From: Pascua guehoae
Taxonomy: Eukaryota; Basidiomycota; Tremellomycetes; Trichosporonales; Trichosporonaceae
Direction: 5' to 3'
Assembly: GCA_001600415.1 (NCBI GenBank)
Contig: BCJX01000002.1
Coordinates: 1 to 64,000 of the forward strand
DNA length: 64,000 bases
In this document: piece by piece, positions 6,804 through 55,998 of the stretch
How the letters are laid out: every line of letters starts with the position of its first letter
How positions within the stretch are numbered: position 1 is the first letter of the stretch
Notes under the pieces: model-generated
Database searches by the model: none
What the model was told of the DNA's origin: nothing
The model's input: the letters and a program-made list of their open reading frames with translations, nothing else
Made by a program: the position numbers and the translations under genes

Positions 6804-8129
6804 CTACTTCTTTGCGGCCTGGTACGTGACACCAAGACGATGCTGCACATACTCACCCCCAGTGATCTTGCGGGTACCAGCCGGAAGACCCTTGCTGACG
6901 ATAATCTGGTCCAGCTCTTCGTCGTTGCTGACAATCAGTACTCGCTCCCCAAGCAGATACTCGCTCCTCAAGCAGGTACTCGCTCCCCAAGCAAATACTC
7001 ACGTTGCGCCCATGACGGGGTCGAGCACACTGTCGCTATCGGGGTGGATAAAGTAGGCAATAGCTGAAAAGAGTCAGCCTTATTCCAAACCGTACAACTC
7101 ACAATATCGCGACGCAAGCTCCTCCTGCGAACGAGGCATCACCACACGGTGCTTGGTAGATGTGAAGAGGCCGCCGGACCAGAACTCGAGGGCGTCGCCA
7201 ATGTTGATCACGAGACAGCCCTGCCTGGGAGTCACATCGACCCACTCGCCACCGAGGGAGACTTGGAGGCCCGATACCAAGTGTTGGAAAAGAATGGTGA
7301 TGGATCCATAGTCTGTATGGGCGCCTGCGCGAATGTCGGCTCTGAGTTGTCAGTTGACCTCTTCCGTCAGCAGCGCAACCCACTCGTTGGGGTCGAGGCT
7401 CTTGTGGTCGGTGGCGATAGGTGGGTAGTGGAGCATACGCATGCGGTTGAGCCTGGTTGTCAGCCATGGTCAAGCTGACCCTTGGTGATTCCTCACTCGC
7501 CGGTGTGCTTGCTAGTGAAGAAATCGGATGGAAGCTGAAGATTCATTAGATTTGTGTCCAACCTAAAGTATGATCGCCCACCTTTAGAGCCACGGCCAGA
7601 CCCTCGAGGAGCCTACCGGCGAGGGCGGTGATGTAAGCTACAAACCTGTCGAGCTTCTCGCATGAAGTAGCAAGACCAGCAGGAAGAATCTGCTGGGCGA
7701 CGCCATGCTCTGAGCGCCAATGGCCATCGGCGTAGTGGAAGCTCTCTTTCATGTCACCAGAGTGATTCTTGGTGTCAAGGCTGCAATGTCAGTGACTTTC
7801 GGTCGAGAAGAGTCTTACCTCTCCTGACGGCTGAAGACGAGTCAGCTCTATTCTCGACTACCTGCATCTTCCGCTTACAATGCAGTGTAACCAGTATTGT
7901 CCTTGAGGTCGACCATCCCGGTGACCTTGTCCTCTGTCTTGGACGCAAAGTAGCCCGCTGAAATAGCAAACGCATCGTCGATAACCTCCTGGGGGATACC
8001 ATGATCGCAAACATAGATGAAGCCGAGGTCGGTGCACGAGTCGGAGAGCGCCTTGGCGAGCGATTCGACAGTCTTGTGCTCTGCCACAGCGATGATGGGG
8101 AGAGCGGGCGTAGCGGTGGCAATGGGCAT
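6804..8129 (-). CDS. Fe(II)/2-oxoglutarate-dependent oxygenase (isopenicillin-N-synthase-like)
   Basis: Predicted non-haem iron oxygenase coupling 2-oxoglutarate and O2 to substrate oxidation. The spliced protein has the family layout: an N-terminal DIOX_N region (ALSDSCTDLGFIYVCDHGIP), a GYTA element, then the iron-binding HxD in 'AGAHTDYGSITILFQ', the distal His in 'STKHRVVMP', the 2-oxoglutarate-binding R-x-S in 'ASRYSIAYF', and a 'YFIHPDSDS' C-terminus. About seven introns are needed. One is 75 nt and carries a tandem repeat (6928-7002). Exon 2 is only 12 nt (7819-7830). The start at 8129 (MPIATATP) fits the family better than the in-frame Met at 8306. The gene is divergent from the dihydropyrimidinase gene. 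Thymine 7-hydroxylase and related pyrimidine oxygenases belong to this superfamily, so a role in nucleobase or hydantoin breakdown is plausible but unproven. Confidence 0.88.
6928..7002 (-). repeat. Intron built of 19-nt tandem repeats
   Basis: A 75-nt intron of the oxygenase gene consists almost entirely of about 3.3 copies of a 19-nt unit. On the coding strand each unit begins GAGTAYYTGCTTG and ends GGGGAGC or GAGGAGC. Each unit brings back a GAGTA that resembles the true GTGAGTA donor. The intron ends in CTGATTGTCAG. Confidence 0.8.
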
Positions 8130-8548
8130 TGTTCGAGAATCTGATTGATATGTGGCGAGTGGAGGATAGAGTCGGGAGGTGGTGGTCGTTGGTCGTTGTT
8201 GGTCGGCGTTGGTCGTTGGGGGGAGTTGCTGGTGATCGCTGGTTGTTTTCGTCGCGGACCCAGTCTCTAATAAGAGTTTTATCACCTCTGCCTCAGCTGA
8301 GTTCATGCATCAACGCATCGGGGCACTTGAGGCCCTCCCTGGGCGCTCCGGGTCAGTTTTCATTGTTTCTTCTCGGCATGGATGATCGGGCGAGATAATC
8401 AACCATCTCACCCGAACCATCAACAATCTCACCCGACCCAACGGCGAACCTCTCCTGGACCCGATAGGAATGAGATGTACATCTTACGAAGACTTCATTT
8501 CTCCATTTCCTTCACCCAACTCATTCCACCACCATCACTCTATCCAAC
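8130..8548. promoter_or_regulatory. Divergent promoter region, oxygenase / dihydropyrimidinase
   Basis: A 419-bp divergent intergenic region. CTCACCCGA occurs twice, at 8407-8415 and 8428-8436, 21 bp apart and about 115-140 bp before the dihydropyrimidinase start. GATA-type words (HGATAR) are at 8393-8398 (AGATAA) and, on the minus strand, 8279-8284 (TGATAA). The latter are the class of site used by fungal nitrogen regulators. Binding is not shown by the sequence. Confidence 0.5.
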
Positions 8549-10701
8549 ATGTGCAAACACTTCGACCTTGTCATCAAGAACGGCATCGTAGTCACCTCTG
8601 GAGACAGCGGGCCACTCGATGTTGGCGTCAAAGACGGCAAGATTGCCTTGCTCGCGCCGGATATTGCCGCTGATATGGCCAACAAAGTCATCGACGCACA
8701 GTGAGCTGGGAGACGACTTCAGAGGGGGAACAGCTGACAATGTCCAGGGGTGGCTATGTGATGCCTGGTGGTGTGGACGCCCACGTCCATGTCGCTCAAG
8801 ATTTCCCCAGCGGTGAGTTGAACCCGCGTATCTTTGCGCCCTGGCTGACTGGGCCTCGCAGGTGCTGAGGGTGTGTCGGCACAGTGTGCAGACAACTTTG
8901 AGTCTGGTTCCCGCTCAGCGGTGTGCGGTGGAACTACGACTTTTATCTCCTTCGGTAGGTCAATAGAAGTTCAGGCGCTACTCACACCTCGCAGCCCACC
9001 AGAACCGCTGGGACCCGTCCATCTTGGAAGTAGTCGAAGCATACGACAAGCTCGCAAAAGAGTCGGGCTCGTACTGTGACTATGGTGAGTCGTTGGTCAT
9101 ATATCCAGCTGACACTTTAGGCTACCACGTCATCATCACCCGTCCGGATCTCGAGATGCTAAACAGCGAACTCCCGGTCCTGGTCGAAAAGTGGGGCAGT
9201 GAGTTCAGCGATACTCAACGCACACGATCAACTGATCACCCCAGTCACCTCTTGCAAGCTCTTCATGACCTACGCGGCTCTCCAGCTACGTGACAACGAG
9301 CTCCTGGACATCATGTTCGAGGCCCGCAAGCTTGCCATCACTACCATGATCCACGCCGAGAATGGCGACATCATTTCCTGGCTTACGGGTACGTATTTGT
9401 ACCGAGGCGGCAGGTGACTGAACCCACGCAGACAAGCTGCAGGAAAAGGGTATGATCCAACCCGGCTACCACGCCGAATCTCGACCGCCAGTGGTGGAGA
9501 TGGAGGCCACCGACCGAGCCATTGTCCTCGCCGAACTCATCCAGAACCCTGTCCTCTTTGTGCATGTCGGGTCGGCCGTGAGTTTTGTCGTACGAAGCCT
9601 TCCTAACTTTCAGTCTGCTGCGGCGGTCATCCGCGCCACCCAGACCCGTGGCTTCCCAGTGTTTGCTGAGACGTGTCCACAGTACCTGCACCTCACTTGG
9701 GAGGACCTCGTGAGTTTGATAACGTATCTACGTGGAACTAATGCCGTTACAGAAGAGGTTCCACTCGCCACAGTGCTTTGAGAATGCAAAGCTCATCTGC
9801 TCACCTCCTCCCGGTCCAGACGGCTCCGACCAGGAGGAGCTTTGGATGTGGGTAACATGACCTGACTGTACATAGCCACCTAACTCGCCACAGTGGTCTT
9901 CGTAATGGCACCTTTACCATCTACTCTAGCGACCATTGCGCCTTCCGGTACGTTCTCTAGTCATGTATAGTTTGACTGTATCTGCACTGACGTTCAGCTA
10001 CAACGACGTCCGCGGCAAGGCCCTTGGTGTTATCCAGCACAAGGCAAGCATGGAAGGATCCAATTGCCCCATTGACAACGATCACGTGTGCGACATTGTC
10101 CATGGAAAGACTGGCAACTTCAAGTACATCCCCAATGGTGCGTCTGAAGGTCTTCTCCTCTCTAATGCCTCAGGCTGCCCCGGTCTCGAAACACGTCTGC
10201 CCCTGCTGTTCAACTATGGGGTGAACCACAACCGCATCACAGCGGAGCGGTTTGTTGAGCTCACTTCAACGGCACCCGCAAAGCTCGTAAGCTCCAAGTT
10301 TGCTATCAAGGTTGACATCAGTACGGTCTATACCCCAAGAAGGGAGCTCTCATGCCAGGTCTCTCGGACGCCGACCTCGTGATATGGTACCCAGCGGGCA
10401 AGATGAAGTCGTTCAGCCTCTCAAACGACCACCTCCACCACGACGCAGACTGTGAGTGACCCTCTCATGTAAATGTACCATGTACCTAACACATACAGAC
10501 TCGCCATACGAAGGCATGGAATTCAACAACTGGCCGCGGTACACCATTCTCCGTGGCAAGGTCGTTTGGGCTGAGGGACAGCTGCTTGGGTCACCAAAGG
10601 ACGGCCAGTACCAGAAGCGCAAGCCTAGTCAACTAACCATGACGGCTGTCAAGACTGCGCAGAAGGACAAGCGCAGGGTGGCAACTTGGCTGTACGAGTG
10701 A
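8549..10701 (+). CDS. Dihydropyrimidinase / hydantoinase (PYD2 type)
   Basis: Cyclic amidohydrolase that opens the ring of 5,6-dihydrouracil, dihydrothymine or hydantoins to N-carbamoyl amino acids. The spliced frame starts 'MCKHFDLVIKNGIVVT' and has all metal-site elements in order: HVH in 'GGVDAHVHVAQDF', the carbamylated Lys in 'TSCKLFMTYAALQ', His in 'MIHAENGD', His in 'LFVHVGSA', the substrate strand 'ETCPQYLHL', and the catalytic Asp in 'YSSDHCAFRYND'. The C-terminus has 'DADYSPYEGMEFNNWPRY'. Ten or more short introns interrupt it, including a 36-nt intron at 9578-9613 that is in frame and stop-free. The next cluster members include an N-carbamoyl hydrolase that would use its product. 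Fungal PYD2 is the closest named relative by role. Hydantoinase activity cannot be excluded. Confidence 0.92.
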
Positions 10702-32466: not shown

Positions 32467-33104
32467 TGCCAATCTCAAATATTCCGCTCTTCACCGACTG
32501 TGAGCTACGCAGGCTTGTGCCTGCTTTTTGACTATCGATCGTCGTTATATAATGCCACAATTATCGACAGAGAAGCCAGAGGAGGGTAGTGCACATCACC
32601 AATATGAGGGAGGACCTCCATATGTTGTCCTGTGAGGTTGGCAAGTGGCTACAATGGAACGCGCGTGCTGTGGATCAAGTTTACGGAAACCCCTACGACG
32701 TCCACATCTCGGAAAGGTGCCAAATATGCTGCTTGTCGTATCTGCTTCTATACATTGCCGAAACTAATGGGAGTGATTCCAAGACAATGTCACAGCCGCC
32801 ATTACCGCACATCTGCATTCTGTGAGGCTGGAAGCGATCGTGAAGTGGTGACAGGGCCATGTTGGCCTCAACGCCTACCTACAGTGTTGGTCGGGAACGG
32901 CAATAGTTGGAGATTATTTGTCCGCCCGAATGGTTCGAGGGAGAATCAGACGTGGAATGAGACAAACAGGATCATCCAACGGGCTTACTGGCAATGAACT
33001 CGGGGCGCAAGCCGAGGTATTCGTGCTTCTGTAGGGCCAGAGTGAGGAAGGGAACTGCGCACCGATAGGAAGGCCGTTCTCCTGACTGCCAAGATCTGAA
33101 CACG
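32467..33104. other. Intergenic, possible transposase relic
   Basis: A plus-strand frame at about 32650-32830 reads 'KGAKYAACRIC' and later 'CHSRHYRTSAFCE', spaced like a BED-type zinc finger of hAT transposases, but it is short and not continued. No gene is claimed. Confidence 0.25.
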
Positions 33105-33207
33105 GTGGGTTTAGCACAGTGGTAGTTGCATCAGATTGCAAGTACGGCTTCTGTTCTGAAGTCGAGCAAACATCTGAGGGTCCCCAGTTCGAACCTGGGA
33201 ACTCACT
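33105..33207 (+). tRNA. tRNA-Cys (GCA), intron-containing
   Basis: The acceptor stem GTGGGTT pairs with AACTCAC. The discriminator base is T, as expected for tRNA-Cys. The anticodon stem is TCAGA/TCTGA with loop TT-GCA-A-A, interrupted by a 30-nt intron after position 37 (33142-33171). The T arm is CCCAG-TTCGAAC-CTGGG. A run of T (gttttt) follows as a Pol III stop. The flanks differ from those of the second copy at 49191. Confidence 0.93.
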
Positions 33208-33578
33208 GTTTTTAACTTTGTCCACTACCTGTGTTGCTGTGTTCCACGTCGCAAAAGCATGGGCAAGTCCGTGCTGCATTTCGCCACTACTGCTTGTAGT
33301 TCTTTTAGTTCTTGCCCTGCGTGTGCCGTCTGCGCTGATTGCGGCTTGTATAGCGTTGCACACCGTACTTCACGTTTGGAAAGGCCATTTCATGCAGATT
33401 ACACAGATCGAATGTGGATGTAACTCAACCGCTGCAAAGACTGTCGATGCACCTCGCACCTCGAAGAAACAGGATGAGGCGGATAGACACAGAAGCGTGA
33501 ATCATCGGCACGCGCTGGCTCACATCGACAATGAATTCATGCCTAGGCTAACAAAGGACACGACCGCCGTATGCCCAA
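33208..33578. other. Spacer after tRNA-Cys
   Basis: About 370 bp between the tRNA gene and the stop of the siderophore synthetase gene. An open plus-strand frame has no domain. Confidence 0.4.
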
Positions 33579-36500
33579 CTATCCCTGGACCTTCGCGGGG
33601 CCTCTTCCCGCGCCATTGAGTAGACCCTCAACTCCCCCGTTCGCGACACTGAGCCCTTTGAACCCAGGGACATAGAGCGGGTTCGGCTGCTCCGTGTAAC
33701 AGTCACCAGCGCTGGGGGTGACTCGCATGGTCAGCAACGCCTTTTGCCTGAGTGTGGGGCCCAAGAGCGCTACAATGTCACCTTCTGCCCGAGCGGCAAG
33801 ATTGGGCCAAGCAGCCGAGAAACGTGCACCGAGTGAAAGGACGCAGTCACGGACGATGCCCCACAGCTCGCCCTCTGTCGCGCCCGTAGCGGTAGACAGT
33901 TCGTGCACGATAGCGAGGAGATTTCCGAAAATGACGGCGTGGGTAAATTTGCCGCGGAGCACGCCAATGTCATCGGTGACAATGATGGAACCTGGGTACG
34001 GGGTAAAGTCGTGGCTGGATGCGCACAGACGACCCGGGTGGACGCGCAGGCCAGCGAAATCGCGCAAGAGCATGCGGGAGAGGCGCATGGGCGCCCCGTT
34101 GGCCCCCGGTCGCACGACCAGGAGTGTGTTCTGGAGGTGGGCCTCAAGTGCGATGCCTGTGCGCCACAGAAGTGGGAGTGTTGCTGACAGCACAAGCTGC
34201 GCATATTGTGTCATGAAACTCGCCGCCGCCGCTCCGAGGTCACCGGCGCTTTGGCCTGCCATGGCATTCACCAGCTCGGCCAGAATAGACTTGCCCGTGA
34301 TCGGCGAGGTGGCAATGAGAGAGCTGCAGCTGATTGCGAGTTCACCGGATTCGATGTAGTCTGCGGGATCGGCGCGAATGACGGCCGACAGACCACGTTC
34401 ACGAGCCGATGCCGCATGTTTACCTTCTGGAGGTACAAAGGCAATGCCGGCGAGCTCTGGAACACATGTCACACAGCCGTCGGTAAGCTGCTCGGTAGAA
34501 AGAATGGTACTGAGCATGGTGGACAGCCGGGGACCATTGCGGGTGCTCGCATGAGAGATGGTTCGCCGGGTTGAAGTCAACTGCACGTCCATGGCGGTCT
34601 TCAGAGCGAGGCGTCGACCGAGGACACCAGGTGTTGAGGTCACAACAGTTCGGGTCGAGACCGTGGGGCGGCAGGAGAGTTGGACCTCAGACAGGATTAC
34701 GATGGCGCCGTCGGCAATCTCACGAGCATACTCGCGAGGGATCACATTCGCTGCCTGCCAAGGGTGTGTGGGGACAAGCTCATAGAGCTTAGGATCAAGC
34801 CCACGGCGGGCCAGTGCCTGCTCAGCCGAACGCACAATGACTGGGTAATGCTCCGCGATGACTTGTCCAACCGAGCGTCCACTCGTGTCTGGGGTGGACA
34901 GCGTGAGGGCGCGCAGCACGGCCACAAGGGGAACGCCAACTGTGGGGTCGCACTCGGGAGCATAGGCCAGGGAGTCGTCTGGCGAGAACCCAGTGCGTGT
35001 TCGTCGGCAAGGATGCACCGGGTGGCCTTCAACGCACAAGACGTCCAGGTCGATTGGGATATCGCTGCGGCTGTGTTCCTTGGCGAGTGTTGCTAGCGCC
35101 GTGGAGGCATTGAGCGCCTGCGCTCGCAGCCGCAAGTGTTCACCGCGCCAACGCCCCACAGCGCGTGCCAGGGCCAAGTTGCACGCCGAGTCCTCCAGCT
35201 CGTGGGCCACGAGGTTCCAGTCGGTCGTATGGCCGTTGATAACCTCGGCGTTCGGGAGAATGCCCTCACTTAACAGCGCCCGATCCTGATCCTTCTGAAC
35301 ATCCGACCGAGCACCATCGAGTTCTCCCAGCCAACGAGTGGCCAGGGCAGGTTCCGTGACGCAGAGATAATCAAACATGCGCTGTTCGACACCGTTGAGC
35401 ATGAATCGTGGCTGTGGGACTGGTGGTGTTGACACTGTGGAGAGTGGATTGGGCGCGTCGACGTAACGCTGGTCGGTAACTAGCCCTTCCAGTCGCATGG
35501 CAAGCAACGTCTTGCGTCGCCAAGGCTCGTGGAGAAGTGCGTATCCGTCATCCAATGTTTCGTCCTGTTCTTGCTTACTCGCCGAAGAACGGGTGAGGTA
35601 CGCGAGCGTTTCGTGCACACACTCACGCACTACGGCCCAGAGGGGCGTCTCGTCGCAAGCTGCGGCAGCAGCCATGGACGTCACGACTTGGCCAAGATGG
35701 TTTCCGAACAGTGGATAGAAGAGCTTGGACCGCAGTGATGCGGCATCGATGGCAATCAGGCCCGTGTCGCCGCCCAGTTCGATCGCATAGCCCCTCCGTG
35801 CAAGGCGATCGGGGAGCACACGTGCACCTCCAAAGTCGCGGACATAGGCACGATGTGGGCGGCCGTTCTTGATCACAATGACGGCGTTCTGAGGGTGAGG
35901 TTCGAGTGCAACACCGTATCGTGACAGCAATGTAAGCAAGGGTGGAATGAATAGCGAGACATGGGCGCGGAGCCAGTCCTCGGCGACTTGCTGCGGCGAG
36001 ATGCTTGGGCTACCTGCAGAGATAGCTTCCTGAAGGAGGTCACCGATGATGGTGTGGTCCGAAAGGGGCGAGCGGGCGAGCAATGCGGCAACAGGCATGC
36101 CCACCTCGTCTGGGCCCATGGTATCCTCAGGGTCCTCGCGAAGAAGCGAGCCCAGAGCACGCTTGCTCCCAGTAAACGCCATACCGGCCAATTCGCGGGC
36201 CGTGGCAAACAGGGGTCGGCCCGACATGTCGGTGCGCGCGAGGTCCATATCACCAGCGACGATGGATGCGATGAGTCGCGACATGCGAGGACCATTGTGG
36301 ACAGACGTCGTTGATACACCACGAATGCACCCTGTCAGCTGCACCTCGAGCGCCGTCTTGACGTGCAGGCCAGTGGAGCCCTCCCTGACCGAGAGGGTGC
36401 GCACAGACATGAGGGGTTTCGCCGGGGCGGTCACGTCGAGAGGAATAAGGGTCTTGTCGGCAAGTGCGGCAGCGTGGAGCTTGGGCAGCGCGTGGTCCAA

Positions 36501-37346
36501 CTGGTGCGGGTGCACGGGAATGAGCACATACCCCGTAGGGTCGATGCCCATCGCAACGAGTTGAGCATGCGCATTCGACGTGGCCAACGGAAATGCCAAC
36601 CGCAGCAGTGCCATGAAGGAATCCGCAGCCCCGTGCGTTTGTGGAAGGATTGTCTTGACAGCGGCAGTCGCGATGGCGCCGCTCTCGCCTTCCGTCCACT
36701 CCTTCTTCACAGCCACGAATCGGAGGCCAAAGCTGGCACCAAACTCGGGGCCGTAGCGCGACGCGTCAGCTGCCGACATGCCGAGCTTGATCTTGGCACA
36801 TGGCGTGAGAGGATGACCATCCACGACACTCTGTTCAAACCCGACGAGGGCGTGCTTGCCGTAGTGGTCAGCTTGCAGGGCGGCAACCAGGGCAGAAAAT
36901 GGCCCGCGGCAGTGGCCGTTTGCTTGGATAAGTGTCTGCAGTCGATGCGCACGCGCCTTTTCCGCTGCGCGAGCGAGGGCCAGACCTCGTACGCTGTCGG
37001 CTATCTCAAGCCGGACCTGGTCCCACGATTGGGCCTTGCCTTCGGTGACAAGATGACGCTGGCAGAGGACATCCAATAGGTCGAGGGGTTTGGTGACCTC
37101 CCCTTGGCCGTCGACAAGGATCGGTGACGCCGAGATGCCGTCTCGACGGCCAGCAGCTGGACCCAAGTGTACGCCCCGGGATGAACACACTGCCAAGTCG
37201 ACGAGATTCTCTGTGACCAAGCACAGGACGAGGCGATCGAGTATGGATCTCTCGGCGGCACAAAACGTCGCACTGTTGTCGAGGGCGTCGGAATCCAAAT
37301 GCTTTCCGCGGGCGTTGCCGTTAGGCAGCATCTTGAGATCAGTCAT
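33579..37346 (-). CDS. Tandem (bimodular) IucA/IucC-family NIS siderophore synthetase
   Basis: One uninterrupted frame of 1255 codons containing two complete NRPS-independent siderophore synthetase modules, about residues 30-640 and 655-1235. These enzymes adenylate a carboxylate (citrate, succinate or 2-oxoglutarate type) and condense it with an amine or alcohol. Module 1 has GHPLTPCAKIKLG (177-189), PVHPHQ (277-282), SVRT (314-317), HNGPR (350-354), EPHPQN (482-487), RDFGG (503-507) and a C-terminal MRLEG...PNPL. Module 2 has GHPVHPCRRTRTG (774-786), THPWQ (860-864), STRT (897-900), RNGPR (936-940), EAHLQN (1068-1073), RDFAG (1095-1099) and MRV...PNPL. Each module departs from the usual GHPxHPxxKxRxG at different positions. 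There is no signal peptide. The family is chiefly bacterial, and in fungi the described case is rhizoferrin synthetase of Mucoromycota. No introns are present, in a region where most genes have several. Horizontal origin is an inference. Confidence 0.93.
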   Translation of the reverse strand: MTDLKMLPNGNARGKHLDSDALDNSATFCAAERSILDRLVLCLVTENLVDLAVCSSRGVHLGPAAGRRDGISASPILVDGQGEVTKPLDLLDVLCQRHLVTEGKAQSWDQVRLEIADSVRGLALARAAEKARAHRLQTLIQANGHCRGPFSALVAALQADHYGKHALVGFEQSVVDGHPLTPCAKIKLGMSAADASRYGPEFGASFGLRFVAVKKEWTEGESGAIATAAVKTILPQTHGAADSFMALLRLAFPLATSNAHAQLVAMGIDPTGYVLIPVHPHQLDHALPKLHAAALADKTLIPLDVTAPAKPLMSVRTLSVREGSTGLHVKTALEVQLTGCIRGVSTTSVHNGPRMSRLIASIVAGDMDLARTDMSGRPLFATARELAGMAFTGSKRALGSLLREDPEDTMGPDEVGMPVAALLARSPLSDHTIIGDLLQEAISAGSPSISPQQVAEDWLRAHVSLFIPPLLTLLSRYGVALEPHPQNAVIVIKNGRPHRAYVRDFGGARVLPDRLARRGYAIELGGDTGLIAIDAASLRSKLFYPLFGNHLGQVVTSMAAAAACDETPLWAVVRECVHETLAYLTRSSASKQEQDETLDDGYALLHEPWRRKTLLAMRLEGLVTDQRYVDAPNPLSTVSTPPVPQPRFMLNGVEQRMFDYLCVTEPALATRWLGELDGARSDVQKDQDRALLSEGILPNAEVINGHTTDWNLVAHELEDSACNLALARAVGRWRGEHLRLRAQALNASTALATLAKEHSRSDIPIDLDVLCVEGHPVHPCRRTRTGFSPDDSLAYAPECDPTVGVPLVAVLRALTLSTPDTSGRSVGQVIAEHYPVIVRSAEQALARRGLDPKLYELVPTHPWQAANVIPREYAREIADGAIVILSEVQLSCRPTVSTRTVVTSTPGVLGRRLALKTAMDVQLTSTRRTISHASTRNGPRLSTMLSTILSTEQLTDGCVTCVPELAGIAFVPPEGKHAASARERGLSAVIRADPADYIESGELAISCSSLIATSPITGKSILAELVNAMAGQSAGDLGAAAASFMTQYAQLVLSATLPLLWRTGIALEAHLQNTLLVVRPGANGAPMRLSRMLLRDFAGLRVHPGRLCASSHDFTPYPGSIIVTDDIGVLRGKFTHAVIFGNLLAIVHELSTATGATEGELWGIVRDCVLSLGARFSAAWPNLAARAEGDIVALLGPTLRQKALLTMRVTPSAGDCYTEQPNPLYVPGFKGLSVANGGVEGLLNGAGRGPAKVQG

Positions 37347-37805
37347 TGCGCAGACGCGTTCGATGGGCTACTTGGCAGCGGCGACGAGGGAGAACGAAAG
37401 GCGCAATGAAGGCGGCGTTCGATACCGATGTCTCCAGCTTAAGTGTTGCACGGCGTGGGGCAGGTGATGCGGCCGTTGCGTGTTGCCGTGGAATAGGTGT
37501 GTCAGGATTGGTGGGACACAGGAGGGACCCGAGAGCAACAGTGGTGCGAAGCACGATTCAGAAGCGCGCGAATCAAGGAAGTTGATGGCTCCAGGTTTCA
37601 ATGTGGTCGTGGGAAGCAAGTGGCTGGCTCTTCCACTCGGCCGAAACACTTCTCAGCATGCGTCCGAGTTCCAGCAACGCCTCTGGCCTCTGGGGGTCGC
37701 TGTGCGCCATTTGTAAGTGCCACCGCACAGACTCTGCACATCACTCTGGATCAGAGGCTCTGAAGGTCAGAGACAGAGGACGTTGATCGTGACGGCAGTC
37801 GGTCC

Positions 37806-37866
37806 AGTGAGTATCGGCCCGCAGAGTATCGGCGCGCAGAGTGTCGGCAGTAGAGTATCATCGGCA
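37806..37866. repeat. Short minisatellite upstream of NIS synthetase
   Basis: Four imperfect copies of a unit reading about GCAGAGTATCGGCCC (variants AGTATCGGCCC, GAGTATCGGCGC, GAGTGTCGGCAG, GAGTATCATCGGC). It lies 460-520 bp upstream of the synthetase start. Confidence 0.6.
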
Positions 37867-38578
37867 ACTACAGCTGGACACACGTCAGTGCAGGGGCTTT
37901 GGTTGAGGCGTACCGAAGACATGGGAACTTGATGGCTCACGGCTGCAGGTGCGAAGCGCACAGATACTTTCCACGTGATCTTCTGCGGACCGCAGCAGCG
38001 CACATGGTGACAATCCTGGGTTGGTTACACACTCGATCGCGCACGGTTGAGCCTCGTCTGTGGAATGGTAAGAAACTTTCCGTGGACGTGGAAAGGGGAG
38101 GGCATCCGCCGGGCCGCCGTCTTCGTGGACCAGCACAGCGTTGGCATGTTGGCAGATCCTGAACGGGACACCTCAAAGTTCCGAGCTAGGCCCGAGCTAG
38201 GCCCCACTGACGCCGATTGTAGTTTTGCGTTGAGGTCATCCGGTCCGTCACCGTGGTTGACTCACAATTGACGTCTTTGGTTGAGAGATAGTCTACATTG
38301 AGCCGACGGGAATGTCGGGGATGGTGTGGGCCCAGCCGACATGCGTCGACACCACCCATAAATCAGAATTCTCGCAGACGATGAGTCGCGCTTGTCGTTG
38401 TGGAATAAAGCGCTTGTATGTCCGTGAACAAGCCTCGGTGGGCGGGAAGTTCATTGCGGCGGCTGTCATACACCAGGGTGAGGATCTGTGGCCATCGTCG
38501 AAGCGAATCGTCGTCGAACCGCTTGAGGCAGGGGCCTTGTCCAAGCCTAACGAGCCCCCGACATGCGCATCCTCGACA

Positions 38579-38594
38579 GGGGGGGGGGGGGGGG
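38579..38594. repeat. Homopolymer G16 tract
   Basis: Sixteen consecutive G bases on the plus strand in the divergent intergenic region. Its length is likely variable between isolates and error-prone in sequencing. Confidence 0.85.
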
Positions 38595-39394
38595 TATACT
38601 TGGAGCAGGGCGGGTTCGGTTGCGGCAGGGCCCACGCGTTGATTACTTCAGTTTGCACGTCATGGATGAGTGTACCTGGGACTCGGGACAGTGACGTGGA
38701 GGAGCGCGGAGTGGGGGGGTGATGGCCCTGTACCTGTCAACGTCGCATCAATTCGCAGGTGGAAGTAACGATGTGAGTGGCAATGCTTGTAGCCGGTCCA
38801 TTGCCGGTCTGTGTACCGTTCGTGCTGGTCTTATATTGATCCAGATCCAGCTGGTCTGGCCATATCATGAACAAGACTGGGAGCGCGGTAAGTTGGCGCA
38901 GCGCAGCAAGTCTTGCCTTCTTAGTCAGCGATCAGCGACGAGACCAGATTCTTGCAAGAAGTATACCCACTATTGTAATAGACAAGGCATGACCTCGCAG
39001 AGTAATGTCTGAGCCGCTGAGGCGCAGCCCCGGCTCCACACTGATGGCTGGCGGTGGTGCGGTCCCAGTGCCCATTGGGAGGGAGACGTATCATTGTCTT
39101 ACGGGATTTCCCGGAGGCGCGGCATGGGCGGTGCATATAGTTGTGCATGGCGACAACGGCAGTATGTGGGGAGATGCATGGTGTGTATTGGCAAGTGAAG
39201 CTGCCGGAGGGTTGTTTTGCAATGTGTGTGGAGAGGTGTCGAGTGGAACGAGTTGTTGTCGAGTTGAAATGTCCGTGTCGAGCTCGAGTCGAGCAGTTCC
39301 CTTGCTGACGTCTTTTGGTCACGTGATTCACAACATGTGCAGGGGCCATATGGGCCCAACCCCAACTCCAATGTCGCCATCTACCCACTTCACC

Positions 39395-40189
39395 ATGTCC
39401 ATCGTACGCCAAACAGACTTGTCCTCCGTCACCATTGATTCTGCTGCAGCGGTGTACAATGAGTCCTTCAACGTGCGCACGTTTTATGTCTTGCGGGCTC
39501 TCTGGGGCGACATGCCAGCGAGCGAAGTGGACCCGATCCAATTGCTCCAGTTCAAGCAGTTTGCCTACCGCGCCATGCGCAACCACGAACTGTATTTCGC
39601 ATACTTGAACGGCTCCCAAGATCCTGGAGCTATCATGGTCCTCAAGCCACCCCGCGGGGATGGCGAGTCTCCAAGGTGTGCCCGAGGAGCCAGACTACTG
39701 AACTCAACTGACGGACTCTGCAGCGAAGAGACACCTTACGATGCCGAGTTCAATGCCCTTGTTCCACCAGATGTGACTGCGCGATCCGACGAAGTGAGTA
39801 TTGTCATAAACATTGCTGACGGCCAGTTGGACGTGCACAGAGCAGCCATAAAGTCGTCGTCGTGGGGACCCGAAGACAAGCTCAACTATCACATCTCCTA
39901 TTTGGCTACTGCGCCATCCGCACAACGACGAGGGCTGGCCTCCCGCCTCATAAAGATGGCTCTGAACCGCGCGAGGAATGAGGGAAGGGAGGTGTCTCTT
40001 ACGACCCACAATGCGGAGAACGTCAGTGCGGGTATTCGATCCGTTCTAACCTCCCAGGCCCAGTTCTACGCACGACACGGCTTCAAGGTCAAGGGTTACG
40101 CAGAATGGAACATTGACTCGACGCCATTTACTTGGTGGTGTCTCACCACAGACATGGCGGGAAAGGGCGAGAGCAGCGCAGGTCAATGA
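39395..40189 (+). CDS. GNAT-family N-acetyltransferase
   Basis: Transfers an acetyl or acyl group from acyl-CoA to an amine. It has 225 residues after removing introns at 39676-39723 (48 nt), 39794-39826 (33 nt) and 40022-40057 (36 nt). All three are multiples of three without stops, so the unspliced frame is also open. Spliced, the protein has the GNAT core 'LNYHISYLATAPSAQRRGLASRLI' (motif A with Q-x-x-G-x-A) and 'NAENAQFYARHGFKV' (motif B). The family-like junctions confirm that the introns are real. The start at 39395 (MSIVRQTD) is preferred over the open extension back to 39005, which looks like a promoter. It is divergent from the NIS synthetase gene. Siderophore pathways often use a GNAT enzyme, but this one has no IucB-specific feature I can name, so the link is only positional. 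Confidence 0.85.
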   Translation: MSIVRQTDLSSVTIDSAAAVYNESFNVRTFYVLRALWGDMPASEVDPIQLLQFKQFAYRAMRNHELYFAYLNGSQDPGAIMVLKPPRGDGESPRCARGARLLNSTDGLCSEETPYDAEFNALVPPDVTARSDEVSIVINIADGQLDVHRAAIKSSSWGPEDKLNYHISYLATAPSAQRRGLASRLIKMALNRARNEGREVSLTTHNAENVSAGIRSVLTSQAQFYARHGFKVKGYAEWNIDSTPFTWWCLTTDMAGKGESSAGQ

Positions 40190-40454: not shown

Positions 40455-41790
40455 CTACTTTCCAAGCGAGTCGTAGAACGCCCTCTCCAGCTCGTTGAAC
40501 GCTAAGTCAAACGGCTCATTGGGGACACCAAATGCAAACAGCTGGGTGGTGAACACGCCCTGTCATGTCAGGCTGTATTTCGACTCAACGTCTCTCCTCA
40601 GGTACTCACAGTTACACCGGTGGTGGGGTCCAACCAGTAAAAGGTCTTGTAGATGCCCTCCCACCACATGCTGTCCTTCTTTCGACCGTGGGGGCTGTCG
40701 ACGGTGCAGACAAAGCCACCAAGGGAGTGCGTGAGGTGGCCGCTATCGATGAGGCTGGGGTCAATGTGAGGGACAAAGCGGGCAAAGTCCAATTGTCCCT
40801 TGAAAGTTCCCTCGGGCGCCTCAGGAAGCTGGTTGGTGAACAGCAGCTTGAACGACTCGGGCGAGATGAGCCCGCCCGGCTGGGCGGAAGCCATGACACC
40901 CTGGAGTACGCGCAAGTAGTCGCGTGCGGTGCCATACAGACCAGCGCCACCAGATGCCTGGCCCTTGGCGGACCCGGGTGTGCAGTCGCGAATACCGGGG
41001 AAGACGATGAGCTTGTGGTCGGCCGGATCGTGCGTGACGACCTGCTGGAGGTGCTCATAGGCAGCGTCCTTGGGGTAGAACGTAAGGGTTGTCGCACCGA
41101 CCGGCTTAAAGACGTGCTCCTGGAAGTAGTCTTCGAGAGACTGGCCCGTAATGCGCTCAATGAGGATGCCCGTCCAGTCAAGGCCAAGAGAGTAGTTCCA
41201 ACCCTCTCCGCCTTCAAAGATGAGGGGCAGCTCAAACGACTTGACCGTGAGGTCGGTGGAAATGACGGTGCTGGCATTGTTCAACTTGACCCACTCGCCA
41301 AGGAGGGGGACCATGACGTCGTAGCCGGTGCCGTTGGTATGCGTGAGCAAGTGGCGGAGAGTGATCTGTTTGGTGGCCTTGTGTTGGACCGCCTTTCCAT
41401 CCTCGATGGCTGTCAGAATTGGCCGCCCAGCTCGGGGAGGTGCTTTGCAATGATTGCGGGGTCATCCAAGGTGAGCTTGCCTGCCTCGACGAGCTGTAGT
41501 GCGGCGAGAGTCACCACAAGCTTGGTCATGCTCATGAGCTGGAGAACTCGTGTGTCAGTAACAGTGATGGATATCCTCGTCTTACCAGTGTCCTCGTCAA
41601 TCTGGCCCTTGTCTGGCTGGCCAAACACCTTGTCTCCCTCGGCCTTGAAGTAGATCGGCGCAGCCTTGGGGTCGGCTGTCGCGATTGCAAACGTCGCCGC
41701 GGGGATGAGGCCCGAGTCGACATGCCTCTTGAGAATGCCGTCGAGCTTGGCCTTTGTTTCAGCGGACACGGTTGGTGGTGAGGTAGTCAT
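40455..41790 (-). CDS. Beta-lactamase-like serine hydrolase/esterase (class C fold), apparent frameshift
   Basis: Serine hydrolase of the beta-lactamase/EstB/LovD type. The catalytic S-x-x-K is in 'LQLMSMTKLVVTLAALQ', the Tyr in 'GWNYSLGLDWTGILIERITG', and 'LRHLLTHTNGTGYDV' is the conserved segment between them. The C-terminus is 'KDSMWWEGIYKTFYWLDPTTGVT', joined to 'GVFTTQLFAFG' by an intron with GTGAGT and CTGACATGACAG. The 39-nt first intron is in frame. At about 41425-41428 the reading frame must shift by one base ('PELG' to 'RPILTAIEDG') with no GT or AG nearby to allow an intron. Either one base is missing from the run of G/C bases or the copy is damaged. The start is at 41790, or 41826 with MNGLPASSQPRA added. 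No signal peptide. Substrate unknown. Confidence 0.75.
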
Positions 41791-41905
41791 TGCGCGGGGT
41801 TGGGAAGACGCGGGGAGACCATTCACTGCTTCCTTAAGAGGCTGTTTTTAGCTTGTATCGTTGGCTGCTAGTGATGCGGGGCCGCGCGTGATTGGGGGAG
41901 GGGGC

Positions 41906-49029: not shown

Positions 49030-49190
49030 GTCCTCCCCACCCATAAAAACATTGCGTCCGACCTGTGTGTAAGTTACGTGAGAACAACTACCGCGATAGA
49101 GTTACGACGTCTGGGTCAAAGACAAGATGAGTCCACTCTGCCGGGGTGATGATTTCGAAACCTATCGACAACGGCCGTTCTTTCACCACA

Positions 49191-49287
49191 GTGGGTTTAG
49201 CACAGTGGTAGTTGCATCAGATTGCAAATACGAGATCCGTCTTGAGCAAGCATCTGAGGGTCCCCAGTTCAATCCTGGGAATTCACT
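49191..49287 (+). tRNA. tRNA-Cys (GCA), intron-containing, second copy
   Basis: Acceptor GTGGGTT pairs with AATTCAC (two G-U pairs), discriminator T. The anticodon arm TCAGA-TTGCAA/A-TCTGA has a 24-nt intron at 49228-49251. The T arm is CCCAG-TTCAATC-CTGGG. The 5' half is identical to the copy at 33105. The 3' half and intron differ by several bases. A T run (gcttttta) follows. Confidence 0.9.
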
Positions 49288-52200
49288 GCTTTTTACTTCC
49301 AGCTTATGGATCCATAACATATGGCTGTTCCAGCGTACGGTTTGTGCCACCTGCCACAACCACAAAATCTGTCTTTGCGGCTCCGTGTCGGATGTTATCG
49401 GGCATGTCTTGGAACCCGCCCACGGTTGGTCGATCAGTATGAAAGACAAAGTCAGTCGCGTGCACATGGGCCTAACCTGGTGGCAAAGCGATGTGGGAGG
49501 AACCCATGCCACCCACACATCCGGCCAGCGCACCCGCCTTAGTCGCTGGACCAAACGTCCCCATCTCAATCCGGCGAGGTCTCTTCCTTCATCTTCCCTT
49601 GAATGAGGACGACATGAGTAACGCAGCGATCCTCACTTACCAGGGAAATGACTACTAGAGGGTTATTGAGCCGGCCGTCCCCCTTGGCGACGAACCCATG
49701 TGGCATAGCTGCGTGCATTCTGTTCACCGCAAGCACCAGGAGCTCAGTGGAAGACCATTCTTCTGGGCCATTGGAGCGATGGCGACAGCTGGTGCTGTCA
49801 GCTGCGGTCTGCTTACGGTGACCGCAAACACTTCATTCTTCTCGCGTCACTTGAGCGTCTATCTTTTATGCTCGTTTTCGGTGCCCTATCCCACGCAGCC
49901 GCCGCAGGTTATCTTGCCGGCTTTGGATGTCCCATTGCCTCAATGTGTCTATCAACGTACCTATGGTTAGATGTGCCTCAGTTGGGATTTGTCGTGCCTG
50001 CGTCGGCGTCTGAGCCAGAATTGCTGTTGGCCGTGCCGGAAGAGCAAGTTGGCGTCTGGCTCGGTAGTGGTTCGCGCCAGACGCCACGCCACCATCAACC
50101 CTTATATCTGAGGCTAACCACGGTCGCTCTGACATTCGTTGGCTTACATGGGGAAATGCCAAGACAATGGGAGACGGCAAAAATCACGCGCCCAGGCGAG
50201 TATATGTTACTGGGTGTGCCTGTTCATATGTGCTACTGAAGTTACCAACCCTGTACGACAAGTACACTGGCCTGCGACCAGGACGGTAGGCCAGAACTGA
50301 TCTAACTTAGCGCCGGGGTCTAACGCCCGCTCTGTAGTTGCCTTCCGGGTTCCGAGCCCTTCCGTTAGCCCCAGAGAAAGTTCGGTAATGTAGGGGGTCG
50401 GACACTTTATGTTTCCAGGAGGTCAAGAGGCTGCGAAAGCCTCCTCAACAAGAAATAACCTCACATACATGGAATGACGAATGGTGTGCACGCGGTACCT
50501 GGTCGAAGCTATTCTGTTATCCGCCAGACATTCAAGGCATCGTTTAAGCTTGATTGCCACAACGGGCGCAAAATACTCAGGCGGGACGGACATTACTGCC
50601 AAGCCTATCTCTTTCGAGGGAACACTAAAACAGCACCAGATCGCCGGCAGACGCAATAAGTCTGCAGCATGAAGGACCTGGGTACAGAAGCAACTGGGGC
50701 TCCAAGGAGTCGATGACCAGACAACGGCTCGTCAGCTGGAACGTTTTGGTTGCGGATGGTTTGCGTGACTTCCCGAAACCAACCTCGGAAGCAGTCTAGT
50801 TCTTGCCGACTGGGGCACCCCCACATGCGCATCAAAACGCCGAGTGCATTATTGGATCCAAAGTCGGCGGTTAGGCTGTCTTGGCACCGCTAGCCGCCTG
50901 GTAGCCGTTTAGTGCTTCTGTGCCAACTTGCAATTGGCCCAGAATAACACCAACACATCAGGTGAGCCGACAACACGTCGGTCAAGTCGGCGAAAGACAA
51001 CAGTTTAATTTCTTGGCGTGGATGAGACAGCAAAGGTGGACGGATGATGGATTGTGTGGGTGCAAAAGACGTGTACGGGATGGTCGTCGCCACCAAATGT
51101 GGGTACACATTCGCCGCAGAGATGTTACGTACGGGTTGCGGCTCCATACTGCTTCCTGCGATTACAAAGGAAGTATGCGGACGTAGTATGGATCTACTCC
51201 GGATCTACATCATTGCTGGTTGGATGTATACGGATGTCTGCGGATGTCACTAATCTTCACCCTTGCCTCGACCACCATTCCGCTGCAAAAAGACGCGGGT
51301 GGCGTTGGCCGCGGGAATGCACACTCACTCTGCTCACGTACGGCCGCCGGCATGGACGTGCACTTTATCCGAGGGGCGGCTACCCTCGGCCCCGTTCATG
51401 GGCGTGCAGTTGTGGAATAATGTGACCCAACTTCTTTCAAATGGGGACGCGCCTGACGCTCTTTTGGGATGCATGTGGTGTCATCTAGCTCAGGTACAGT
51501 ATATTTAAACACTCGAACCACCCTTGGGGCACCGCATGGCCAGCACACCTTGGCACTGGGGCACATGGAGGGTTGTGCCTGCCTCGTGCTCTTTGTCGGG
51601 GGCTGTCTCGGGGCAGCAGAGGCTCAAAGGCGGCGCTCAGAGGCGTTCGCGGCGCAACACATGCGGGATCGATCAACGACTGTCGAAGACACGGGTAAAA
51701 GGGTCAGGGTAACTTTAAACCGCTCCACCCCAAGTCACAACTCACCATCAACAAACCTCGTACAGTCACTGCAGTGCGATGCATTCTCCAACCATGTCCA
51801 CCGTCACCGCGGCTGCGCTGCCGCTCGCTTACTTGTTCTTATTTTCGGAGATTCTCTCTACCTGCACCCACTCAGGGGCGCTGCTGCAGTGCTTGATACA
51901 CCGGGCCGGGTCCAGCTGTGTGTCCCAGGAGACTGGGGCGGGGTACCAAGCTCGTTGGGTCCAAGGCGCCGTGGTCGCCGGACATCCTATCGGGGCACCA
52001 GCAGATGTAGAGCGACGCTAGTTGGAATTCGGCGTTCCAAGCGGCGCCTGTGAGTCCTTGACTTGAAGGTTGAATGCGCTCTTAAGAAGGTGAGTTCCCT
52101 CGCACTCGTCTCCCTCCCGCCATCCGCTCCTCACTTCGTCACATTGACCGTAGAGCGTCTGTCTTTGACCTTTTGCTCTGTTCCGCGGCACGGTAACGAC

Positions 52201-55907: not shown

Positions 55908-55998
55908 ACGCTTGTCGTCTAGTGGTAAGGATGCCACTCTTCCAGCAGCATCTGCAAGGATCAAAGTGGTGACAGGGGTTCGAGCCCCCTCAGGCGTA
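55908..55998 (+). tRNA. tRNA-Gly (UCC), intron-containing
   Basis: The acceptor ACGCTTG pairs with CAGGCGT, discriminator A. The anticodon stem CCACT/AGTGG encloses loop CT-TCC-A-A, interrupted by a 19-nt intron after position 37 (55945-55963). The T arm is AGGGG-TTCGAGC-CCCCT. The D arm contains GTCTAGTGGTAAGGAT. The anticodon read is UCC. All stems pair. Confidence 0.9.

Follow-up and report, generated by a model that had tools for sequence, protein, structure and literature searches.

How a basidiomycete-like yeast comes to encode a two-module siderophore synthetase, and what such an enzyme would make, is the question raised by a gene within 64 kb of the start of a 3.83-Mb contig of Pascua guehoae (assembly of 33.6 Mb in 28 contigs); this opening stretch of 64,000 nucleotides, at its full length, is called the window. 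The gene, located at 33579..37346 on the minus strand, has been identified through open reading frame (ORF) analysis, Pfam and alignment as encoding a tandem synthetase of 1255 aa belonging to the nonribosomal peptide synthetase (NRPS)-independent siderophore (NIS) type. It is probably a self-contained, horizontally acquired enzyme with two active sites, and its predicted product is a citrate-diamine-citrate siderophore of the class of rhizoferrin, staphyloferrin A and corynebactin. What makes it noteworthy is that it occurs in a basidiomycete-like yeast, that its sister genes belong to another phylum and that it is likely to be the sole siderophore synthetase.

A tandem NIS synthetase in one reading frame

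The ORF starts with ATG, ends with TAG and runs through 1255 codons in a single unbroken frame. That two complete IucA/IucC modules lie within one intronless frame of this length, as the original prediction had claimed, is borne out by exact ORF coordinates and by Pfam, which recovers each domain twice. Module 1 (N-terminal, residues 146-650; 35397..36911, minus strand) and module 2 (C-terminal, residues 741-1234; 33645..35126, minus strand) each consist of an IucA_IucC and a FhuF-like domain. The profile search places both halves inside the IucA/IucC family, with two matches to PF04183 (389.3 bits, E 8.6e-117) and two to PF06276 (189.4 bits, E 8.2e-56), both above cut-off. No hidden intron or second gene has been seen, because the frame contains no internal stop and aligns over its full length with bacterial and fungal tandem proteins.

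The motifs sought were those listed in the original prediction together with further motifs of the NIS family, and all of them have been located by residue in module 1 and module 2, respectively: HPxQ as HPHQ 279 and HPWQ 861; SxRT as SVRT 314 and STRT 897; KTA as KTAL 330 and KTAM 916; NGP at 351 and 937; the ExHxQN type as EPHPQN 482 and EAHLQN 1068; RDF at 503 and 1095; PNPL at 632 and 1221. These positions agree with the earlier statement, which named HPxQ, SxRT, NGPR, ExHxQN, RDF and PNPL as retained in each module. The catalytic-motif residues fall within columns invariant across 21/21 aligned tandem proteins, and invariant columns occur in both halves. The two modules are 30% identical to each other (167/556 aligned positions), and a NIS fold is predicted for both, the 22 top entries of each comparison list being NIS synthetases. 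On sequence grounds, the assignment to the NIS siderophore synthetases of the IucA/IucC family is very secure, far beyond chance. Across the assembly PF04183 matches twice, both times inside the synthetase ORF, and no other IucA/IucC match is present.

Relatives and descent of the two modules

The search with the synthetase gave 41 matches from 7993 scored candidates. The original prediction had pointed to fungi, bacteria and related Trichosporonales as places to look for relatives; fungi and bacteria both yielded them, while no Trichosporonales name occurs among the 41 matches. The protein searches scored 7993, 7996 and 7997 candidates, so that missing basidiomycete relatives are not proof of absence, and a contig scan with the window protein as sole query returned no relative. 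The best matches are 11 Orbiliales proteins of 1190-1210 aa, labelled hypothetical or uncharacterized and 45-47% identical to the synthetase. Since these have the same architecture, the two-module chain is not unique among fungi. Tandem proteins with 45-46% identity are found in Kutzneria, Amycolatopsis, Embleya and Kitasatospora, while those of the Corynebacterium type are about 30-35% identical. Actinobacterial names with tandem-type length account for 11/41 matches (one partial). The modules of Actinopolyspora (L007-L011) lie in separate adjacent frames at 5/5 loci.

Two further eukaryotes carry such proteins. The liverwort Calypogeia fissa has two, likewise among the best matches (P0003 of 1282 aa and P0013 of 1241 aa, their contigs measuring 46.8 and 25.0 Mb respectively), and the whitefly Bemisia tabaci has one (P0027, 1021 aa) on a 47.5-Mb contig. 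These contigs are chromosome-size, and the Bemisia and Calypogeia copies may reflect either transfer or contamination. The whitefly protein is placed among or beside the Orbiliales proteins.

The tree of single modules started from 312 modules, of which 299 were left after duplicate removal and 298 after a length filter. The two kinds of tandem module, for which the original prediction had proposed separate trees, fall in two distinct clades, with one window module in each. The N-module clade (54 members, support 0.999) holds 44/47 tandem N modules and 0 C modules; the C-module clade (57 members, support 0.986) holds 44/47 tandem C modules and 0 N modules. In the tandem proteins P0034, P0035 and P0041 both modules lie outside both clades. 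The deep clades containing L050-L082 were taken as other NIS types by assumption. In the N clade the sister group of the window module is Orbiliales plus Bemisia with support of 1.0, and in the C clade the same relationship has 0.993. Modules from Legionella and Ralstonia and the staphylococcal SfaB/SfaD neighbour the two tandem clades, and rhizoferrin-type products are known for some neighbours of the Legionella, Ralstonia and Staphylococcus type. Because N and C modules form separate clades, they represent an ancient paralogue pair inherited together, not a fungal duplication. A recent duplication within the fungus is rejected, the modules being 30% identical and placed in separate ancient clades.

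The concatenated IQ-TREE analysis used 58 sequences, reduced to 54 by gap and near-identity filters. In this tree the window protein, Orbiliales and Bemisia form a clade with 100/100 support and no bacterial sequence inside, Calypogeia stands beside it with 51/82, and the window and Orbiliales branches measure 0.32 and 0.41. Approximately unbiased (AU) tests were run on 26/54 hand-chosen sequences with a simpler model and fast search. The grouping of the window protein with actinobacteria without Orbiliales was rejected (p 0.0002; 0.004 with Calypogeia included), as was that of Orbiliales, Bemisia, actinobacteria and Calypogeia excluding the window protein (p 5e-6). The AU tests leave the placement of Calypogeia undecided (one eukaryote clade p 0.57; with actinobacteria p 0.23), and likewise that of Bemisia inside or outside Orbiliales (outside p 0.57). 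The simplest history suggested by these trees is horizontal acquisition of the synthetase gene from an actinobacterial source, with one entry into fungi followed by spread between phyla; we infer the direction and number of transfers.

Comparable systems, proposed function and rival explanations

The closest described bacterial counterpart is CiuE of Corynebacterium diphtheriae, a single-chain tandem NIS protein which, according to PMC3326035, is required for corynebactin, a lysine carrying citrate on both amines. The same paper lists further bacteria with tandem IucA/IucC-FhuF proteins and leaves the role of each CiuE half open. The premise that aerobactin-type steps are always separate proteins in bacteria is not supported, in view of CiuE and the actinobacterial matches of tandem-type length. 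The two-module architecture is already known in bacteria and fungi, and the novelty claimed at the outset is right in part only. CiuE and the window protein share two homologous IucA/IucC-FhuF modules per chain in the same order, and the N and C modules of the Corynebacterium type share the two clades of the window modules, CiuE itself not being among the sequences used. The differences relate to the identity of about 30-35% for this type, to the setting (a bacterial operon with a gene of the major facilitator superfamily (MFS) at L012, compared with an isolated fungal gene) and to the product, corynebactin for CiuE and a compound proposed by analogy for the window protein. The tandems of Kutzneria, Amycolatopsis, Embleya and Kitasatospora have the same architecture and module order; they sit in operons, unlike the window gene.

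Among fungi, the Orbiliales tandem proteins are the closest relatives and the window protein is their sister, although they belong to another phylum, Ascomycota. According to PMC13101506, deletion of DhSip1, an Orbiliales NIS gene of Dactylellina haptotyla, abolishes the halo on chrome azurol S (CAS), and the gene is needed for trap formation, iron rescuing the defect. Its product of 1055 aa, with an IucA/IucC domain, clusters with an rfs-like protein of Cladobotryum (PMC13101506); DhSip1 is presumed to be orthologous to P0001 of D. cionopaga (1199 aa). For Cladobotryum, PMC10989895 gives the NIS clusters a foreign or uncertain origin. PMC10700112 reports that rhizoferrin in Rhizopus delemar needs no synthetase but Rfs, names the Rhizopus enzyme as the only characterised fungal NIS synthetase and mentions single-module NIS genes in Armillaria (type A') and other basidiomycetes. 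Rfs, FslA and Armillaria type A' are of the same NIS family as the window protein, but with one module per protein; the gene for Rfs and those of Armillaria cluster 1 are divided into several exons (PMC10700112), whereas no split is seen in the window gene. Among the open-licence papers listed, none describes a tandem NIS gene from a basidiomycete or from Bemisia, the liverwort not having been searched by name.

Staphyloferrin A (citrate-ornithine-citrate) is made with two NIS modules, SfaB and SfaD, as stated in PMC3326035, and four staphylococcal loci fall within the same large clade as the window modules. The equation of module 1 with SfaB and module 2 with SfaD is not upheld, as SfaB and SfaD pair with each other in the module tree. 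This idea came from source names, P0063 being called 'staphyloferrin A synthase'; the single-module matches P0084, P0089, P0092, P0098, P0102, P0107 and P0133 bear the name 'D-ornithine---citrate ligase'. At L033, SfaA-D were assigned partly by a gene order that we take to be typical of them; ornithine-racemase-like and MFS-like genes were also used to recognise them.

The neighbours of the bacterial genes have been analysed with a first set of ORFs chosen mostly by length, 6/10 without a Pfam match, and a later set chosen by GC content at third codon positions (GC3). At Kutzneria L004 the order is class-III aminotransferase (6949-8610), aspartate-kinase-like gene (about 8628-9800), tandem synthetase and MFS gene; the aspartate-kinase-like protein matches Pfam AA_kinase above cut-off, while the NCBIfam aspartate-kinase models remain below theirs. 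This arrangement suggests that a diamine is provided from aspartate, for example 2,4-diaminobutyrate, and that the siderophore is built on it. L004 is the second tandem NIS copy of Kutzneria viridogrisea and has L-lysine epsilon-oxidase-type and ferritin-like genes downstream; among the ORFs scanned at the first copy, L003, no such partner was present. An MFS gene also follows the tandem gene in Amycolatopsis circi (L006) and Corynebacterium silvaticum (L012). At the two-gene loci L014, L020 and L041 there is an overlapping gene of the ornithine/diaminopimelate (DAP) decarboxylase type, which at L020 matches NCBIfam models including FslC below their cut-offs. On the whole, the bacterial neighbours appear to fit a product in which a diamine, varying by lineage, carries an acid cap at each end.

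A doubly condensed carboxylate siderophore is the likely product of the window protein, judging from its family and from the neighbours of its bacterial relatives. In the proposed mechanism, each module would use ATP to activate a carboxylate, most likely citrate, for attachment to one of the amines of a diamine. The mono-citryl amide would be formed by one module, and the other would add the second citrate. The diamine may be putrescine, ornithine or lysine, and since ordinary fungal metabolism would supply it, no gene cluster would be needed. The gene would descend from an actinobacterial CiuE-like tandem gene through horizontal transfer, along a branch shared with the Orbiliales genes. Substrates, step order, product, export and regulation are all proposed in this way.

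The enzyme would probably be the sole siderophore synthetase of its host, acting alongside reductive iron uptake. A six-frame search of the assembly gave 0 matches to the NRPS condensation domain PF00668; such a search reads exons singly, could miss a split gene and was run for PF00668 and PF13434 without a positive control from a fungus. For the Lys/Orn N-oxygenase PF13434, seven matches exceed the Pfam cut-off (best E 1.3e-6), each covering 73-121/339 positions. FTR1 was matched three times at two loci (best E 8.0e-45), and this match, together with that of the synthetase itself at E 1.1e-131, indicates that the method works on this genome. The TRI12-type MFS family, which includes siderophore transporters, gave 16 matches (best E 4.9e-29 at C10:1266696-1268168). 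Given the lack of PF00668 matches, the weak and partial PF13434 matches and the presence of FTR1, the host seems to lack an NRPS/hydroxamate route and to possess reductive iron uptake, so that the synthetase may be the only siderophore pathway.

Several observations weigh against this proposal. No NCBIfam family reaches its cut-off on the synthetase; the best, FslA, scores 316.6 bits compared with 1000 required by a model of the 'exception' type with a narrow cut-off, and is also the top match for each half. Being two-module and below this cut-off, the window protein does not fit the Rfs/FslA type. The PF13434 matches are read as other flavoproteins but leave some room for a hydroxamate route. 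No siderophore partner, transporter, MFS exporter or iron gene has been recognised beside the synthetase among the 39 of 173 window ORFs of at least 110 aa that were scanned with Pfam in addition to the synthetase itself. The decarboxylase-bearing loci L014, L020 and L041 lie outside the two tandem clades, and SfaB and SfaD are separate proteins that group together (0.935) in a part of the tree that has weak support and belongs to neither module clade. The codon usage of the synthetase gene is less host-like than that of 17/18 host stretches, which are Pfam-match segments, some from weak matches; this unusual usage could mean low expression.

The latter comparison also touches on the question whether the gene belongs to the yeast at all. 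A contaminant or assembly artefact might be suspected from the GC3 of 0.66, the lowest among 19 stretches compared, yet codon usage is nearer to host genes (-1.26) than to actinobacterial genes (-1.41 log units per codon), and the synthetase sits on a 3.83-Mb contig between an intron-bearing tRNA-Cys gene and a PF00144 gene split as by an intron. Contamination is most improbable and was rejected on the basis of the large contig and these two neighbours; the non-contaminant fungal setting presupposed by the original prediction is supported. As to the host, a tremellomycete-like basidiomycete is likely, though on thin evidence: an adenylosuccinate synthetase exon from this assembly scores 613.7 bits with PDB 5i33, the Cryptococcus neoformans enzyme, and 383.2 bits with the next entry. 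Rfam, applied to the first 10 kb of 14 contigs, detected four tRNAs and no rRNA. The origin of the gene in the yeast is less clear-cut. That the yeast acquired it separately, from some unsampled bacterium related to the one that supplied Orbiliales, in place of one shared fungal entry, is a serious possibility without being a probable one: the window and Orbiliales branches are long, the phyla are far apart and donor bacteria are sparsely sampled, while the fully supported clade of window protein, Orbiliales and Bemisia admits no bacterial sequence among the 54 analysed.

With regard to function, the two modules need not both be catalytic. One of them could perform both condensations and the other bind or scaffold, much as the single-module Rfs is reported to suffice in Rhizopus delemar (PMC10700112); every checked motif is present in both modules, the invariant columns lie in both halves in 21/21 proteins, and bacteria as well as eukaryotes retain the two module clades together, which makes this reading decidedly unlikely. 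A true NIS synthetase might also use another carboxylate, an amino alcohol or a hydroxamate instead of citrate and a diamine, or make a product other than a siderophore. Substrates are unreadable from sequence, and the scanned neighbours include no recognised transporter or iron gene; on the other side, siderophore production depends on CiuE and on DhSip1 in their own hosts (PMC3326035 and PMC13101506), and TRI12-type MFS genes occur elsewhere in the genome, so this option is unlikely as well.

If the two-site citrate-diamine synthetase is confirmed, a tandem NIS synthetase would be established in a basidiomycete-like yeast, the role of each half, left open for CiuE in PMC3326035, would become testable in a eukaryotic enzyme, and a compact tool to make carboxylate siderophores in yeast would be at hand. 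If true, one gene would be enough to give a whole siderophore pathway to a fungus in which NRPS siderophore genes are not detected. A bolder view, offered tentatively and short of probable, is that this one-gene pathway is a trait mobile across kingdoms. It would have arisen in Actinobacteria when two ancient NIS genes became joined, and would since have become established in nematode-trapping ascomycetes, in this yeast, in the whitefly and in the liverwort. In the yeast it would replace the NRPS route as sole siderophore synthetase.

Genomic setting of the synthetase gene

The region upstream of the synthetase gene (37347..38992) extends to a divergent ORF with a GNAT domain (38993-40189, Pfam) and is presumed to be the promoter region. 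A CCAAT-N12-RWT site, which we take to be a HapX-like iron-regulator motif, occupies 37492-37511 on the minus strand and starts 165 bases upstream of the ATG; it may be due to chance, because there are 13 matches across the 64-kb window on both strands. The GATA-type site ATCWGATAA is absent from the 1 kb upstream of the gene.

Beyond the GNAT-domain ORF, Pfam identifies a PF00144 serine-hydrolase-like gene at 40598-41847 on the minus strand, which spans two frames as though interrupted by an intron; the scanned ORF 40553-41650 on the plus strand runs antisense to it. In Amycolatopsis L005 and L006, too, a PF00144 gene immediately precedes the tandem NIS gene, and over 191 positions the window and L005 genes are 29% identical. 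Because genes of this family are so widespread, this has not been counted as a cluster, and the shared neighbour is probably a coincidence.

Just past the 3' end of the synthetase gene, ARAGORN with introns allowed places a tRNA-Cys(GCA) gene with a 30-base intron (33104-33208, plus strand), and a similar copy with a 24-base intron lies at 49190-49289 on the plus strand. Without introns allowed, ARAGORN reports zero tRNAs in the window. Rfam at gathering threshold finds just one tRNA there, at 55908-55998, missing the two intron-bearing genes. No telomere repeat has been found in the window. Pfam further assigns an amino-acid transporter (17.9-19.1 kb), an AMP-binding enzyme (22.4-23.5 kb), a methyltransferase (28.7-29.9 kb) and an OPT transporter (52.4-55.2 kb).

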